Origin: a virus
Virus record (IMG/VR): IMGVR_UViG_3300035665_000182
Coordinates: 1 to 29,505 of that record
DNA: 29,505 nt
Reading direction: 5' to 3' (one strand)
Below, one piece after another: positions 24,709-29,505 of the stretch (positions are counted from its first letter, which is position 1; each line of letters opens with the position of its first letter). A model generated the notes under the pieces. That model was not told the origin of the DNA. It made no database searches and was given only the letters and a program-made list of their open reading frames with translations. The position numbers and the translations under genes were made by a program.

Positions 24709-26270
24709 AGGAAGAAGATTTCGGGGGCTTCAGGATCGGAGGTGATTTCTTGCGACGCGTAGACGCCGATCGCCATCACGAGGCTCACGATCCCGTCGAT
24801 CCGTTCTGTGCTCCTGGCCTTGCTGGGCTTGATGTTGCCGGCCGACGTGTCCTGTTGAATCGCTACGTTCCCTGCTTGCCAGGCCAATACAGGGTTGCCG
24901 TCGTGAAGCAACTTGCCGCCTACTACCATCGCCTCCAACTGCTTCGATGGGCCGCTCATGGAGCCGTAGCCCTGCCCGAAGCCTATAACCGAGAGCCCGT
25001 CCCCTTGCAGTTGGTTCGCCAGTTGCGTCGCGTTCCAGCGGTCGATGGCGATCTGCCGGATGTTGTATTTCTGGGAAAGTGCGTTGATGTCGGCCCGCAC
25101 GCGATCAAAGTCGGTCACGTTACCGTCTGTCACGGTCAGTAGCCCTTGGCGAGCCCATGCGTCATACGGAACCTTGTCTCGCCGCACCCTTTGCTGAAGG
25201 TTTTCCGATGGAATCCAGAAATGCGGTTCGACCCAATACTTGCCGTCATCTAGCGGAAATAGCAGCACGAACGCCGTCGTGTCGAACGTAGTGGCGAGAT
25301 CGAGCCCGGCCCAGCATTCCCGCCCCTCTAGCGAAACCGGGCACTCCATCGCACCGGCGGCCCAGTGATCCATGCGGAGCCAGCGAGTGTCCTGCTCTGT
25401 CCACTGGTTGAGATAAAGCTGCCGGAAAGTGTTTTCGTAGGCTGGCAGTTCGACCGCCTTCTGGCACTCCTGTCGCAAAAATTCAACCTGAACCGAGACC
25501 CCCAGGTTTGGATTGGCAGCCGCCCACGTCTTTTCGTCCTTCCAATCCGCATCTGTTGGCGCGGCGTACACGGCAGGCAGGAACGTCGCATCTTTGATCG
25601 TTCCGGCCGCGACGGCCTCGGCGTACTTCCACACCTCCCAGCACACCGACTTCCTGTCGAATCCGGCAGTGGTCAAATACGCCATGATCGGCTGGGCTCT
25701 TTTTCCCATTGCCGTCGCCATGACATCGTGGAGCTCTCGCGACTTCTGAGCATGGAGTTCGTCGAATACCACGACGTGCGGATTCAACCCGTGCTTCGTG
25801 AAGGCTTCCGCCGACAACGCCTTGTAGGTGCTATGCGTCGCCGGCCGAACGATCGCGTTCCGGTAGAGTTTCAGGTGCCGACTCAGGAAGGGCGACTGCT
25901 GAACCATGCCGCTCGCGATCTCCCAGACGAGCCTAGCCTGCTCACGATCGGCGGCACACGAATAGTTCTCGCCGCCCGGCTCGCCCTCCATCAGCCCCTT
26001 CAAGGCAATGCCGGCGGCCGTCGTGCTCTTGGCGTTTCCTCGAGGAATAGCGAGTAGCGTCGTGCGATACTGACGCGTCCCATCTGGCTTCAGCGTGCCA
26101 TAGAGCGAGTGAAGCCACTGCTTCTGCCACGGCTGCAGCAACAGCGACTTGCCGCCGAGCGGACCCTTGACGTGGGTAAGGTGCTTCTCGAAGAAACGGA
26201 TCGCGAGGCAGCCCGGGCAATTAGCCGAGCATACGGCGGTCTTCTTCGTCCTCTTCGCTTGCTTGTTCAA
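24705..26270 (-). CDS. terL: Terminase large subunit (Terminase_1 type)
   Basis: Packaging motor of about 521 residues. Seen: N-terminal LLLQPWQKQWLHSLYG adenine-binding segment; Walker A variant PRGNAKST; Walker B VVVFDELHAQ; coupling motif TTAGFD; and the RNase H-like nuclease acids in CWAGLDLA, IAIDRWN and ERIDGIVS. It translocates and cuts phage DNA at the portal. The first ATG (26345) lies 124 bases inside the small-subunit gene with no spaced ribosome site and a Ser/Arg-rich start, so I prefer TTG 26270 (AGGG about 9 bases upstream), still overlapping terS by 50 bases. The exact start is uncertain. Confidence 0.92.
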   Translation of the reverse strand: MNKQAKRTKKTAVCSANCPGCLAIRFFEKHLTHVKGPLGGKSLLLQPWQKQWLHSLYGTLKPDGTRQYRTTLLAIPRGNAKSTTAAGIALKGLMEGEPGGENYSCAADREQARLVWEIASGMVQQSPFLSRHLKLYRNAIVRPATHSTYKALSAEAFTKHGLNPHVVVFDELHAQKSRELHDVMATAMGKRAQPIMAYLTTAGFDRKSVCWEVWKYAEAVAAGTIKDATFLPAVYAAPTDADWKDEKTWAAANPNLGVSVQVEFLRQECQKAVELPAYENTFRQLYLNQWTEQDTRWLRMDHWAAGAMECPVSLEGRECWAGLDLATTFDTTAFVLLFPLDDGKYWVEPHFWIPSENLQQRVRRDKVPYDAWARQGLLTVTDGNVTDFDRVRADINALSQKYNIRQIAIDRWNATQLANQLQGDGLSVIGFGQGYGSMSGPSKQLEAMVVGGKLLHDGNPVLAWQAGNVAIQQDTSAGNIKPSKARSTERIDGIVSLVMAIGVYASQEITSDPEAPEIFFL

Positions 26271-26679
26271 CAGCCGACACCCTCGCCAGCGCGGAGGCAG
26301 TGAGCCCGAACTGCTCCGCGAACCGGAGCATATGGAGCCGAGCATCCTTCTTCCGATACCACGCCGGGTGATTCATCACGCGGCCTTTGTCATCCATGAA
26401 AGTCGCCCCGTGCTGCTTGAGCTCTTGGTCGGCTTTCACCATGTCGGCGAGTGCATCGCAGTAGCAGGCGAGCGTCTGCTGATGGCGGAGACTCATCACA
26501 CCAGATGACGCAAGCATCGGAACGATGCGGCCCCACTCGGCCCGGCCGATCTCGCACAGATAGTCGGGGACGGCGGGGATGCCCGAAGGCGCTTCGATGC
26601 CGGAAACGTGCGGCCCGCGAACGCGAGCACCGCGAAGTTTCAGGATCGCCTTCGGCGTCGGCTTGCGGCCTTTTGGCAC
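26221..26679 (-). CDS. terS: Terminase small subunit (P27 family)
   Basis: A 152-residue protein with the P27-type start GRKPTPKAILKLRGARVR and a central W..I...L..SG..... L..YC-type helical segment, followed by HPAWYRKKDARLHMLRFAEQFGLTASALARV, the family's C-terminal helix. Small subunits recognise the packaging site and regulate the large subunit. Start is GTG 26679 with AGAGGG upstream. It overlaps the large-subunit gene. The 108-base spacer upstream separates it from the homing-endonuclease-like gene. Confidence 0.85.
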   Translation of the reverse strand: MPKGRKPTPKAILKLRGARVRGPHVSGIEAPSGIPAVPDYLCEIGRAEWGRIVPMLASSGVMSLRHQQTLACYCDALADMVKADQELKQHGATFMDDKGRVMNHPAWYRKKDARLHMLRFAEQFGLTASALARVSAVEQASEEDEEDRRMLG

Positions 26680-26787
26680 GGGAAATGCCCTCTGCTAGGG
26701 GACGTTACTTTCAACCATTCGTACGCGGCATGGAACAGCGGGTTTTCCTCAGACGGCCGTTTTTGCCTGAAAAAACTGCATAGGGGG
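26680..26787 (-). other. Spacer upstream of terminase genes
   Basis: A 108-base non-coding stretch between the Cys-rich HNH gene and terS. It contains ACGGCCGT next to T-rich sequence and a stretch (GTTTTCCTCAGACGG on the plus strand, about 26741-26755) resembling the conserved GTTTTTCTCATACGG of the late control repeats at 28.7 and 28.9 kb. A residual late promoter copy is possible but unproven. This is also where a cos or pac site might be expected; none is identifiable by eye. Confidence 0.25.
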
Positions 26788-27867
26788 TCAGGTTTGCGAG
26801 CCTGTCGCCAATCCTAGCGGCAGTGGCAACTGCCCAGACCACTTCGCACCCTTTGCTGTGTTGCAGCCCCAGCACGCACACCTCACGTTGTCCCATGTGT
26901 GCCCCATCACGCCGGCGCTCAGCGGGTAAGGGTGATGGTCGACAGTAGGCGATCTCAGCCTGGGCTTGCCATCACTCAAAGTAAACACTTTGAGTGTCTT
27001 CCTCTTGCAGATGTGGCAAACGTAATTGTCTCTGCGGAACACATCTTGCGACTTAATGCTGGGGTCGAAAGGCAGCCCATGCCTCCTGCACCTCTTGCGG
27101 TGATTGCCAGATAGGATGTTCTTCAGCTTCTGTTTTCTTCTGCGCTCGCACTTGTCGCAAAGAGGGGTTCGCCTGAGTGCATTGTGTACTACATCTATCC
27201 CGCAGTCGCAGCACGAGCCCTTGATTCTGGCCCTCCTTGCGCACCTTCTGGAACAAAGTCGCTCGTACGATCTGACGCAAAGTCGCCCGCATACATCGCA
27301 GTCTCTCTTTAATGCTCGAGATAAGAGCGCACGCACGCCAAGCACCTTCGTCAAAAACGCAGCCATATCATCTCGACATTGCCTCGGAAACCATCTCGAA
27401 ACTGATTGAGCAATGTTGCTCGGTCTGGTCCTGGCTGCCTCGTCAATCTGTGTTCGATCCCACGTTTGAAGCCCGACCTTCTTGGCGGCGTTGTAGCAGC
27501 CCAAACAGCAATATTTCTTTTGTGCCTTAGTGAGCTTTAATCCACACATCATGCAAGACAATCGCCGCTTCTTTTTCTCGGACGGAGCGCATACAGGCTT
27601 GCGAGTCTTTTGGTCGGCCCTCCATCGCTCACGCCGCTCAGCGCTCGCGGCATCCTTGCACGCATCGCAATACAGCTGCCTAGCCATCGCGTTCGCATGC
27701 TTTGCGGTGAACTTCTCGCCACAACGCTTACATGCCTTCTCGCAGCATGAAGGCAAAAGCCCATGAACGCGGGCCTTTCTGCGCTGCTGCTTGCAGCACT
27801 CAGGGCAGGACGCCTTGTCCTTCCCGGCCTTCGTACACCACGACGATCCGCAACGACGGCACGCCAT
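26788..27867 (-). CDS. Cys-rich HNH endonuclease, probable free-standing homing endonuclease
   Basis: A 359-residue basic protein with a string of about ten C-x-x-C knuckles over residues 1-250 (CRRC, CPEC, CKRC, CDAC, CMMC, CLGC, CDVC, CCDC, CDKC), then a C-terminal HNH domain: FRRDNYVCHICKRKTL, TVDHHPYPLSAGV (the DH of the motif), TWDNVRCACWGCNTAKGAKW (closing N and Cys pair). HNH proteins cut DNA; serial zinc knuckles suggest a long target. It separates the small HNH gene from the terminases, has lower GC than its neighbours and its own very strong ribosome site, all signs of an inserted mobile endonuclease. That site lies in a hairpin (27869-27895). The C-terminus may alternatively serve packaging. 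Confidence 0.75.
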   Translation of the reverse strand: MACRRCGSSWCTKAGKDKASCPECCKQQRRKARVHGLLPSCCEKACKRCGEKFTAKHANAMARQLYCDACKDAASAERRERWRADQKTRKPVCAPSEKKKRRLSCMMCGLKLTKAQKKYCCLGCYNAAKKVGLQTWDRTQIDEAARTRPSNIAQSVSRWFPRQCRDDMAAFLTKVLGVRALLSRALKRDCDVCGRLCVRSYERLCSRRCARRARIKGSCCDCGIDVVHNALRRTPLCDKCERRRKQKLKNILSGNHRKRCRRHGLPFDPSIKSQDVFRRDNYVCHICKRKTLKVFTLSDGKPRLRSPTVDHHPYPLSAGVMGHTWDNVRCACWGCNTAKGAKWSGQLPLPLGLATGSQT

Positions 27868-27868
27868 A

Positions 27869-27895
27869 AATCCACCTCCTTGTGGAGCGTGGATT
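27869..27895 (-). promoter_or_regulatory. Hairpin sequestering the endonuclease ribosome-binding site
   Basis: On the minus strand AATCCAC-G-CTCC, loop ACAA, GGAG-GTGGATT, immediately followed by the start ATG region: 11 pairs with one bulged G. The near-perfect Shine-Dalgarno AAGGAGGT runs from loop into the 3' arm, so read-through mRNA should be poorly translated unless the hairpin is opened or missing. Confidence 0.75.
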
Positions 27896-27912
27896 GTACC
27901 ACAGGAAACCAG

Positions 27913-28203
27913 TCATTCACGCGACTCGTGCATCGTTTTCAAGAGATGGCACGCGCTGCAAAGACACTGGCCGTTGGACGGTTCGTACCGAAGATCTGGC
28001 CGAGCCTTGACCGGGATGATGTGGTCGGCGTGATTCGATTCGCTGATCGTTCCGCACTGGCGACAGGCGAACGCATCCGCGATCAGCACGGCCTGCCGCC
28101 ATTGCCTGTGCTGCTTCGAGCAGTAGCCTCTCGCCGCTGCGTGGGGGCGGTTCTCTCTCGTCCTCAAACGTGGTGCCCTGAATGACGGCACCCGCTGCGG
28201 CAT
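27913..28203 (-). CDS. Compact HNH endonuclease next to terminase
   Basis: A 96-residue protein with CRQC (C47, C50), NHADHIIPV (H58, D60, H61), a P.NGQCLCSACH segment (N77, C82, C85, H86) and a basic N-terminus: a complete, minimal HNH with a structural zinc. In many HK97-like phages an HNH protein encoded beside terS/terL is needed with them to cut the packaging site, and this is the best reading here. The ATG lies 3 bases after the preceding stop codon. It is followed at 45 bases by the larger HNH gene. Confidence 0.82.
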   Translation of the reverse strand: MPQRVPSFRAPRLRTRENRPHAAARGYCSKQHRQWRQAVLIADAFACRQCGTISESNHADHIIPVKARPDLRYEPSNGQCLCSACHLLKTMHESRE

Positions 28204-28206
28204 AGC

Positions 28207-28563
28207 CTAGCTCTTGAGCGTGATGGTCGCCGTGACCCCTGTGCCAGCGGTGTTGCCCACCAGCACTTCCAGGAACGGCACTCCGAACACAGCGTCGGGA
28301 AGCGCGTACATCGTGCCAACCGAAGTGCTCGGGGCGAGCGTGATGTCGGCCACGCTGCCATCGGTGTTGTAGAGCCGGCGGAAGTTGCCGCCTTCAGCCG
28401 ACGAGCCCCACATCTGGAGCGTGGTGGCAGAGGTCGCGATGGTGCCGATATCAACCACACCGCCCGCGAAGTCCTCGGTGAACAGCGTGGTCGCGTTCGC
28501 CGTCGAGGTCGTGAGGGTGATCGGGATCTGCCGCGAGCGGCGGCGCATCTTGATTTCGGACAT
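28207..28563 (-). CDS. Small beta-rich protein, 118 aa, first gene of late operon
   Basis: First gene after the long control region. A short basic start (MSEIKMRRRSRQIPI) leads into an all-beta Thr/Ala/Gly/Val-rich domain (TLQMWGSSAEGGNFRRLYN, LPDAVFGVPFLEVLVGN) resembling the jelly-roll type virion proteins. Likely structural, perhaps a decoration protein, but no family is recognised. It precedes the HNH and terminase genes. Confidence 0.55.
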   Translation of the reverse strand: MSEIKMRRRSRQIPITLTTSTANATTLFTEDFAGGVVDIGTIATSATTLQMWGSSAEGGNFRRLYNTDGSVADITLAPSTSVGTMYALPDAVFGVPFLEVLVGNTAGTGVTATITLKS

Positions 28564-28717
28564 TGCTAACTCCTGAGATAAGGCACTGGTCTCGGGCCAG
28601 CCACGCGGCCTACAGATCCGATCCTAGAGCGAGTGGCTGGCAGGCTTGCAGCCCGGGGCGACCGTGTCTCGCCGCAGTAGCGCACCTGGCCAGTCTCTCC
28701 CTTCGCTCTATAGCGCA

Positions 28718-28767
28718 CCGATCATATTGGAAACCCACCGCAAAACGTCGTTTTTCTCATACGGAAA
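28718..28767 (-). promoter_or_regulatory. Late control repeat 1
   Basis: CCGATCATATTGG (28718-28730) and CATACGGAAA (28758-28767) separated exactly as in repeat 2. On the minus strand the order is TTTCCGTATG, 27 bases, CCAATATGATCGG, the latter with TATGAT (28721-28726) as a -10-like box. No matching -35 is present, so an activator at TTTCCGTATG is plausible. Distance to the first late gene is about 150 bases. Confidence 0.5.
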
Positions 28768-28769
28768 GG

Positions 28770-28832
28770 GCGTCTCTCACTTTCGCCCCAAACGTGCAAC
28801 ACAACCGGCGTTGTGTTCAACAAGTGAGACGC
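28770..28832. repeat. Long interrupted inverted repeat
   Basis: Outer arms GCGTCTCTCACTT (28770-28782) and AAGTGAGACGC (28822-28832; two extra bases in the left arm); inner arms AACACAAC (28798-28805) and GTTGTGTT (28810-28817) around CGGC. It sits between the two late control repeats. It may be a regulator site, cruciform or terminator isolating the upstream promoter. Confidence 0.5.
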
Positions 28833-28852
28833 TAGGTGCGGCGTGTAGTGCC

Positions 28853-28902
28853 CCGATCATATTGGCGATCCGACGTTTCGCGCTCGTTTTCCCATACGGA
28901 AA
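28853..28902 (-). promoter_or_regulatory. Late control repeat 2
   Basis: CCGATCATATTGG (28853-28865) and CATACGGAAA (28893-28902), 135 bases from repeat 1 and with the same 27-base inner gap. The flanks T-G-TAG-TGC and GTTTTCCC also match repeat 1 in most positions. The -10-like TATGAT lies at 28856-28861 on the minus strand. Confidence 0.5.
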
Positions 28903-28926
28903 ATGTCACATTCCGACAGTTTCTGC

Positions 28927-29130
28927 TCAGTGCTCCAGCAACTCCGCCGGGATCATCGCCCTCACTGCCTCCAGGGCGTGAACCTCGTCGGCGGTAGGCC
29001 GCTCGTACTTGATCCGGTTCCTACACCACTGGTCGATGGCCCAGATCGCAGACAACGCCTCACTGCCAAGCCGGGCGGCGTCGAACTCAGCCTGTTCGTC
29101 GGGCAGGTTGAACCGTAGCGTGGCGATCAT
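28927..29130 (-). CDS. Small conserved phage protein, 67 aa
   Basis: MIATLRFNLPDEQAEFDAAR, then AIWAIDQWCRNRIKYE and a short helix. This is the pattern of a widespread small phage protein (LPEEQ.EF......... ..D.WLR..IKY); its function is unknown. The ATG overlaps the preceding gene's stop by 4 bases. It is the last gene before the late control region, so it may end an independent upstream unit. Confidence 0.65.
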   Translation of the reverse strand: MIATLRFNLPDEQAEFDAARLGSEALSAIWAIDQWCRNRIKYERPTADEVHALEAVRAMIPAELLEH

Positions 29131-29369
29131 GCGAGCCTCGCCAGTAGGGATCGCAAAGCGTCGGAGTGATTCGTCTCGCTCATCGACAGCGCCTGCAACT
29201 CTATCGACGCGACGATCACGGCCTCACGCTCCGCGCCGGTGAGGCGGCCCCACAGCCGCAGTCGTTCGATCTCGGCAGCGGCCTCGTGGCAATCCCAGTA
29301 GTGCTGCTCGTCTTCGGTTCCGAGCATGTTGGCGCGGGTCTGCCGCAGGCGTGTGGCGATGTCTGTCAT
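29127..29369 (-). CDS. Small hypothetical phage protein, 80 aa
   Basis: A helical protein with DCHEAAAEIERLRLW, resembling the DC.EAAAEIERLR helix common in short phage proteins of unknown role. No clear ribosome site precedes ATG 29369, but a promoter-like TAGAAT lies 7 bases upstream of the start, so the mRNA may be leaderless. Coupled (ATGA) to the next gene. Confidence 0.6.
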   Translation of the reverse strand: MTDIATRLRQTRANMLGTEDEQHYWDCHEAAAEIERLRLWGRLTGAEREAVIVASIELQALSMSETNHSDALRSLLARLA

Positions 29370-29505
29370 GGCTCAAATTCTACCGCAGCGGTCACGCCGC
29401 GCAATGCCATTCCGACACAAACCTCTGCCCGTTTTTCTTTCGGCAGCGGTTTCGTTACGGTATCGCATTTTGCGATTGCGGCTCAACTCTGGTGCAAGAG
29501 CGCAC
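29370..29505 (-). promoter_or_regulatory. Possible promoter and spacer at right edge
   Basis: No gene seen. On the minus strand TTGCGC (29399-29404), 16 bases, TAGAAT (29377-29382) precedes the 80-residue gene and would start transcription on or just before its ATG. A small hairpin, TCGCA-TTT-TGCGA, lies near 29464-29476. The rest shows nothing recognisable. Confidence 0.35.

Follow-up and report, generated by a model that had tools for sequence, protein, structure and literature searches.

Does a nuclease gene inserted between the packaging genes of a phage bring its own control of expression? The question arises from a stretch of 29,505 nt, positions 1 to 29,505 of the virus record IMGVR_UViG_3300035665_000182 of IMG/VR (hereafter, the window). 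A first-pass annotation had proposed that the ribosome site of a Cys-rich HNH nuclease gene is locked in a hairpin and that this selfish gene has evolved the same damping as phage T4 I-TevI and related homing endonucleases. The gene and its surroundings are as follows.

26788..27867, minus strand: gene of the 359-aa Cys-rich HNH nuclease (class 1), with the HNH at about 284-341 and the first 40 codons being part of a conserved head
27913..28203, minus strand: small HNH gene (96 aa), the conserved upstream neighbour of the 359-aa gene
28207..28563, minus strand: gene of a 118-aa protein, the phage-group marker for finding empty sites
26221..26679, minus strand: small terminase gene terS (Terminase_4, phrog_83)
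26755-26732, minus strand: intergenic element CGTCTGAGGAAAACCCGCTGTTCC (GTCTGAGGAAAACC...GTTCC), conserved in the small HNH-terS interval of many carriers and empty sites

The 359-aa protein matches the phage HNH family phrog_1271 (E 5e-14) and reaches 20.0 bits with the Pfam HNH model, slightly under the cut-off of 21.4 bits. The Cys, Asp, His and Asn residues of the HNH region are invariant across 39 relatives. Together, these features identify an endonuclease domain. Its AlphaFold model (pLDDT 85, pTM 0.43) had no match below E 0.001 among solved structures, the best being a Geobacter HNH nicking enzyme (E 0.16). Neither a DNA similarity search with the locus nor a search with the head peptide gave a match in the isolated-phage set of 50,697 records, and the genome collection gave general HNH relatives only, without a host link. 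Many relatives of the gene are present in IMG/VR, in uncultivated phages. We rejected the possibility of an intron-encoded endonuclease: no flanking self-splicing intron was found, as no Rfam family, hence no known intron type, matches the window at the gathering threshold (below it, there was one chance-level snoRNA).

To look for empty sites, we scanned with the 118-aa protein and obtained 80 loci belonging to the phage group. The gene order in those carriers that include the neighbours is 118-aa gene, small HNH, 359-aa-type gene, TerS, TerL, and portal. Many loci run from the small HNH to TerS with about 100-200 nt between them and the nuclease gene absent, e.g., L215, L216 (118-aa protein 92% identical), and L217. 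Since relatives without the nuclease gene exist, it is an insertion, and the empty relatives, together with the adjoining terminase genes, bear out its earlier description as a gene inserted between packaging genes. Such a presence/absence polymorphism at a fixed site is the pattern of a free-standing homing endonuclease. Hence, the 359-aa gene has the features of an inserted, homing-endonuclease-like HNH gene, whose homing activity we infer. The region upstream of the terminase is a hot spot for such nucleases, and the HK97 HNH is a packaging partner (PMC10448857). The small 96-aa HNH is the likely counterpart here of the HK97-type HNH found directly before the terminase, whereas the 359-aa gene is additional and missing from many relatives. 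The class 1 gene is inserted before the GTCTGAGGAAAACC...GTTCC element, possibly a cos or packaging site, and the other HNH class (class 2) after it, directly before TerS. Other inserts of 1.2-3.2 kb occur at or near the small HNH-TerS junction in L181, L218, L219, L222, L230, and L254, with genes that resemble, as judged by eye, ParB, DNA methyltransferases, or other modification functions. We also noted a perfect 10-bp inverted repeat (CACTCAAAGT/ACTTTGAGTG) at 26973-26996, within the HNH coding region.

The start of the nuclease gene carries two further features.

27895-27869, minus strand: RNA hairpin over the translation start (5' arm 27895-27884, loop ACAA 27883-27880, 3' arm 27879-27869)
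27881-27874, minus strand: Shine-Dalgarno (SD) AAGGAGGT, with GGAGGT within the 3' arm

On the minus strand, positions 27895-27869 read AATCCAC-G-CTCC / ACAA / GGAGGTGGATT, giving 11 pairs with a bulged G at 27888, and a single T separates the 3' end of the hairpin from the ATG at 27867. The stem, loop, and spacing reported before are thus read directly in the letters. The claim that the SD is locked in the 3' arm holds for GGAGGT but not for the first two bases of AAGGAGGT (27881-27880), which lie in the loop. Folding of the 61-nt region returned this hairpin as both the MFE and the centroid structure (-19.9 kcal/mol), and the SD core has an unpaired probability of 0.17 in the predicted read-through RNA. 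When the window sequence is taken alone, its standing against shuffles is borderline: z is -1.73 for the 61-nt fold, with 10/200 shuffles equally stable, and -3.2 for the 40-nt leader.

The relatives are more telling. Our sample includes 32 distinct 45-nt leaders of the Cys-rich HNH gene family in uncultivated phages, including that of the window. A hairpin directly before the ATG can form in 31 of them (30/31 apart from the window's), with an SD-like sequence close to the ATG; it is weak in L022-L025 and L202. The sole exception is L027, where the gene is present with neither SD nor hairpin. The stems differ widely in sequence, e.g., AATCCAC/GTGGATT, GCCACC/GGTGGC, ACCACC/GGTGGT, GGCAACT/AGTTGCC, GGTCTCC/GGAGACC, and CGTCACAC paired with GTGTGACG or GTGTGGCG. 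Across 27 family leaders and L353 of another class, there are 20 different 5' arms, and 22 of the 220 pairs (10%) are G-U, which argues for pairing of RNA rather than DNA. The position of the stem with respect to the SD shifts from one relative to another, so we did not use a column-based pair count but a register-free swap test, which compares the pairing of each leader's own 5' and 3' arms with derangements and needs no alignment columns. The mean was -11.3 kcal/mol for own arms versus -8.8 for swapped ones, and none of 20,000 derangements was as low, although the leaders are related and the number of independent changes is therefore overstated. The result was the same within group A and within group B. 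Upstream arms that vary without compensating changes had been named as the observation that should count against the hairpin; the arms do vary, and they compensate. The mean z of the leaders against shuffles is -1.5. Their MFE (-32..+3) is -10.2 in group A and -11.3 in group B, versus -3.8 to -6.0 (p < 1e-7) in the leaders of three neighbouring genes used as controls (118-aa gene, small HNH, and terS). From these comparisons of sequences, the hairpin in the window is real and, with the relatives added, well beyond chance.

What the hairpin covers is less constant. The stem contains the SD core in the leader of the window and in those of L017-type and L293/L295. Most other leaders have it in the loop, so that the stem spans the SD end and the spacer and sequestration is predicted to be partial (unpaired probability about 0.6-0.8). 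The expression "locked SD" fits the window copy, and the family-wide description is a ribosome site covered by a hairpin. The sequestration in a stem proposed earlier is therefore found in the window and a few relatives, but burial of the SD is not conserved elsewhere. How strongly the hairpin would block translation is uncertain, the SD core being in the loop in most relatives.

If the leader of read-through RNA is covered, how would the nuclease be made? The foot of the hairpin suggests an answer.

27898-27893, minus strand: TACAAT, a -10-like box that extends three bases into the 5' arm
27887-27884, minus strand: zone where transcription is predicted to start, 6-9 nt past the -10 box and within the 5' arm

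In the window copy, TGG precedes TACAAT, as in the extended -10 type. All 19 group A leaders, including that of the window, have the motif TACA[ACT]T ending 22-25 nt upstream of the ATG, as against 0/117 control leaders with the motif within 45 nt of the start; its density elsewhere is 1.7e-4 per base. At this distance from the ATG, a transcript from the box would begin inside the hairpin: a start 6-9 nt past the motif would fall in the 5' arm or the loop of group A leaders. A scan of 26500-29505 for the sigma-70 consensus found no consensus -35/-10 pair, so that the box is a putative promoter by its conservation only. In group B, twelve leaders carry TTGACA at 35-43 nt from the ATG, which we did not adopt as a -35 element, since group B has no recognisable -10 to match it.

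The predicted effect of losing the 5' arm differs between leaders. For a start at +7, the unpaired probability of the window SD core would rise from 0.17 to 0.82, and the cost of opening -16..+6 would fall from 17.1 to 15.5 kcal/mol (a drop of 1.6), or to 11.5 at +9 (a drop of 5.6). What keeps the relief at +7 small is that the truncated RNA can still form a short UCCAC/GUGGA stem and another stem that reaches into the coding region. In group A, the mean opening cost goes from 13.8 to 9.1 kcal/mol on truncation, and truncation to -17 gives a relief of 5.3 (group A) and 8.3 (group B) versus 2.1-3.0 kcal/mol in control genes (p < 1e-5). In L203 and L339, where the box itself is within the 5' arm, the cost falls from 13.7 to 5.4 and from 11.1 to 3.6. 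Transcription starting inside the hairpin, as suggested before, agrees with a -10-like box placed to remove the 5' arm, but the relief in the window is small and group B lacks a clear -10.

Hence, we propose, with a probability of about 0.62, that the inserted HNH gene carries its own hairpin-gated expression control, with a second transcript from the TACAAT box. RNA reading through from the upstream packaging genes, presumably from the small HNH gene, would fold the leader, cover the ribosome site, and yield little nuclease. From the TACAAT at the hairpin foot, a second and shorter RNA would start within the 5' arm and, unable to form the full hairpin, would be translated, possibly late. Should the box be the gene's promoter, transcription of the 5' arm would come mainly from upstream, and selection on its pairing would then point to the read-through RNA.

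This arrangement has known parallels. In I-TevI, I-TevII, I-TevIII, segB, and Aeh1 mobE, the hairpin forms on upstream transcripts and the promoter's own transcript lacks the arm (PMC2988022, PMC3014915), which confirms the T4-type precedent invoked by the first-pass annotation. The closest likeness is with mobE of Aeromonas phage Aeh1, itself an HNH (PMC2988022, PMC3014915), and T4 segB, which are free-standing endonuclease genes among conserved phage genes with the ribosome site in an RNA hairpin. They belong to T4-like phages and use T4 promoters, whereas the family described here has an unrelated packaging module (Terminase_4 TerS), a bacterial-type TACAAT box, an SD mostly in the loop in the relatives, and a Cys-rich head common to different bodies. 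The T4 I-TevI leader also has a promoter positioned to give a transcript without the 5' arm, whereas here we have the position of a box and a predicted start; furthermore, I-TevI is a GIY-YIG enzyme encoded in an intron, unlike the HNH gene of the window, which has no Rfam intron match. In the lysozyme gene e of T4, long transcripts form an inhibitory helix and promoter-proximal ones do not, but e is the phage's own gene and the window gene is a mobile-type nuclease. The damping of the I-TevI type is thus matched in structure, compensation, box position, and insertion, but not in a conserved burial of the SD, and the relief is modest. A variant form of the known hairpin-gated endonuclease expression, outside T4-like phages, is the best explanation, with moderate support. 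So far, the design has been measured and documented in T4-like phages (PMC2988022, PMC3014915), where phage late promoters are used. Covariation and a host-type -10 box in a separate uncultivated phage group suggest that damping may be a general need of selfish nucleases among essential genes. The 32 leaders offer natural variants usable for testing.

The family has a second peculiarity. For example, within L016/L180 and within L017/L185/L186, identity is 93-100% over the leader and up to about codon 40 and then drops to about 40% through much of the gene, and L010/L018 and L293/L295 have a related pattern with shifted boundaries. The leader and first 40 codons thus make up a constant head to which different nuclease bodies are joined; this new pattern offers a way to follow the replacement of one such gene by another at the same site. 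The head may be a portable unit of control and targeting that is retained when the body changes, and its Cys-rich protein part may recognise the leader, so that each new nuclease would get ready-made control; we regard this idea as doubtful. The hairpin string, when searched for, was found at the ribosome site of family genes, of one unrelated 70-aa gene, and of another Cys-rich HNH gene that has a different head (MRVSACQCCGES) and is present at five loci; the other matches that were checked are not positioned before such a gene. The five loci (L342, L344, L352, L353, and L361) form a second Cys-rich HNH family with MRVSACQCCGES as its own constant head and the same type of hairpin leader. Their phages have distant TerL proteins, 33-35% identical to that of the window where present.

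The constancy of the head could also mean that the hairpin is the binding site of the nuclease's own Cys-rich head, which would repress its own translation like phage translational repressors. Exchange of the remaining protein leaves the leader and first 40 codons joined, the Cys-rich head is better conserved than any other part of the protein, and the SD is often in an exposed ACAAGGA loop. Still, loop and stem sequences vary widely, and HNH genes whose head is different (L342, L353, and L361) are preceded by the same hairpin type, so we consider such autogenous control unlikely. Translational coupling, in which ribosomes ending the small HNH gene melt the hairpin and tie nuclease output to the small HNH, would use the fact that the two genes lie side by side in the same direction in every carrier that includes both. 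However, the distance from the stop to the 5' arm is 17 nt in the window and ranges over about 12-28 nt among relatives, mostly too far for a terminating ribosome, and the TACA[ACT]T box is left unexplained, which makes coupling quite unlikely. If the nuclease or some other repressor bound an operator in the DNA at the promoter, this would account for an inverted repeat that overlaps the -10-like box and for TGTACnnnGTACA around the box in some leaders (L005, L010, L016, and L032), with I-TevI binding its late promoter as a precedent; we judge such an operator very improbable given that the repeat sequence is not fixed, that its register slides relative to the SD, and that there are bulges and 10% G-U pairs. 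Least credible is a structure without regulatory role, a by-product of a strong GGAGGTGG ribosome site in GC-rich DNA, which fits the borderline window hairpin (10/200 shuffles) and the mean leader z of -1.5 but is disfavoured by the arm compensation in the swap test, the 20 different arms, and the contrast to the neighbouring genes.

The leaders of class 2 nucleases (n=7) are structured too but lack the SD hairpin of the class 1 type. In L209, L210, L227, L233, L252, and L272, TTGACA or TTGACG stands shortly before the class 2 start codon, without an SD, at a distance of about 19 nt in four of these six leaders.
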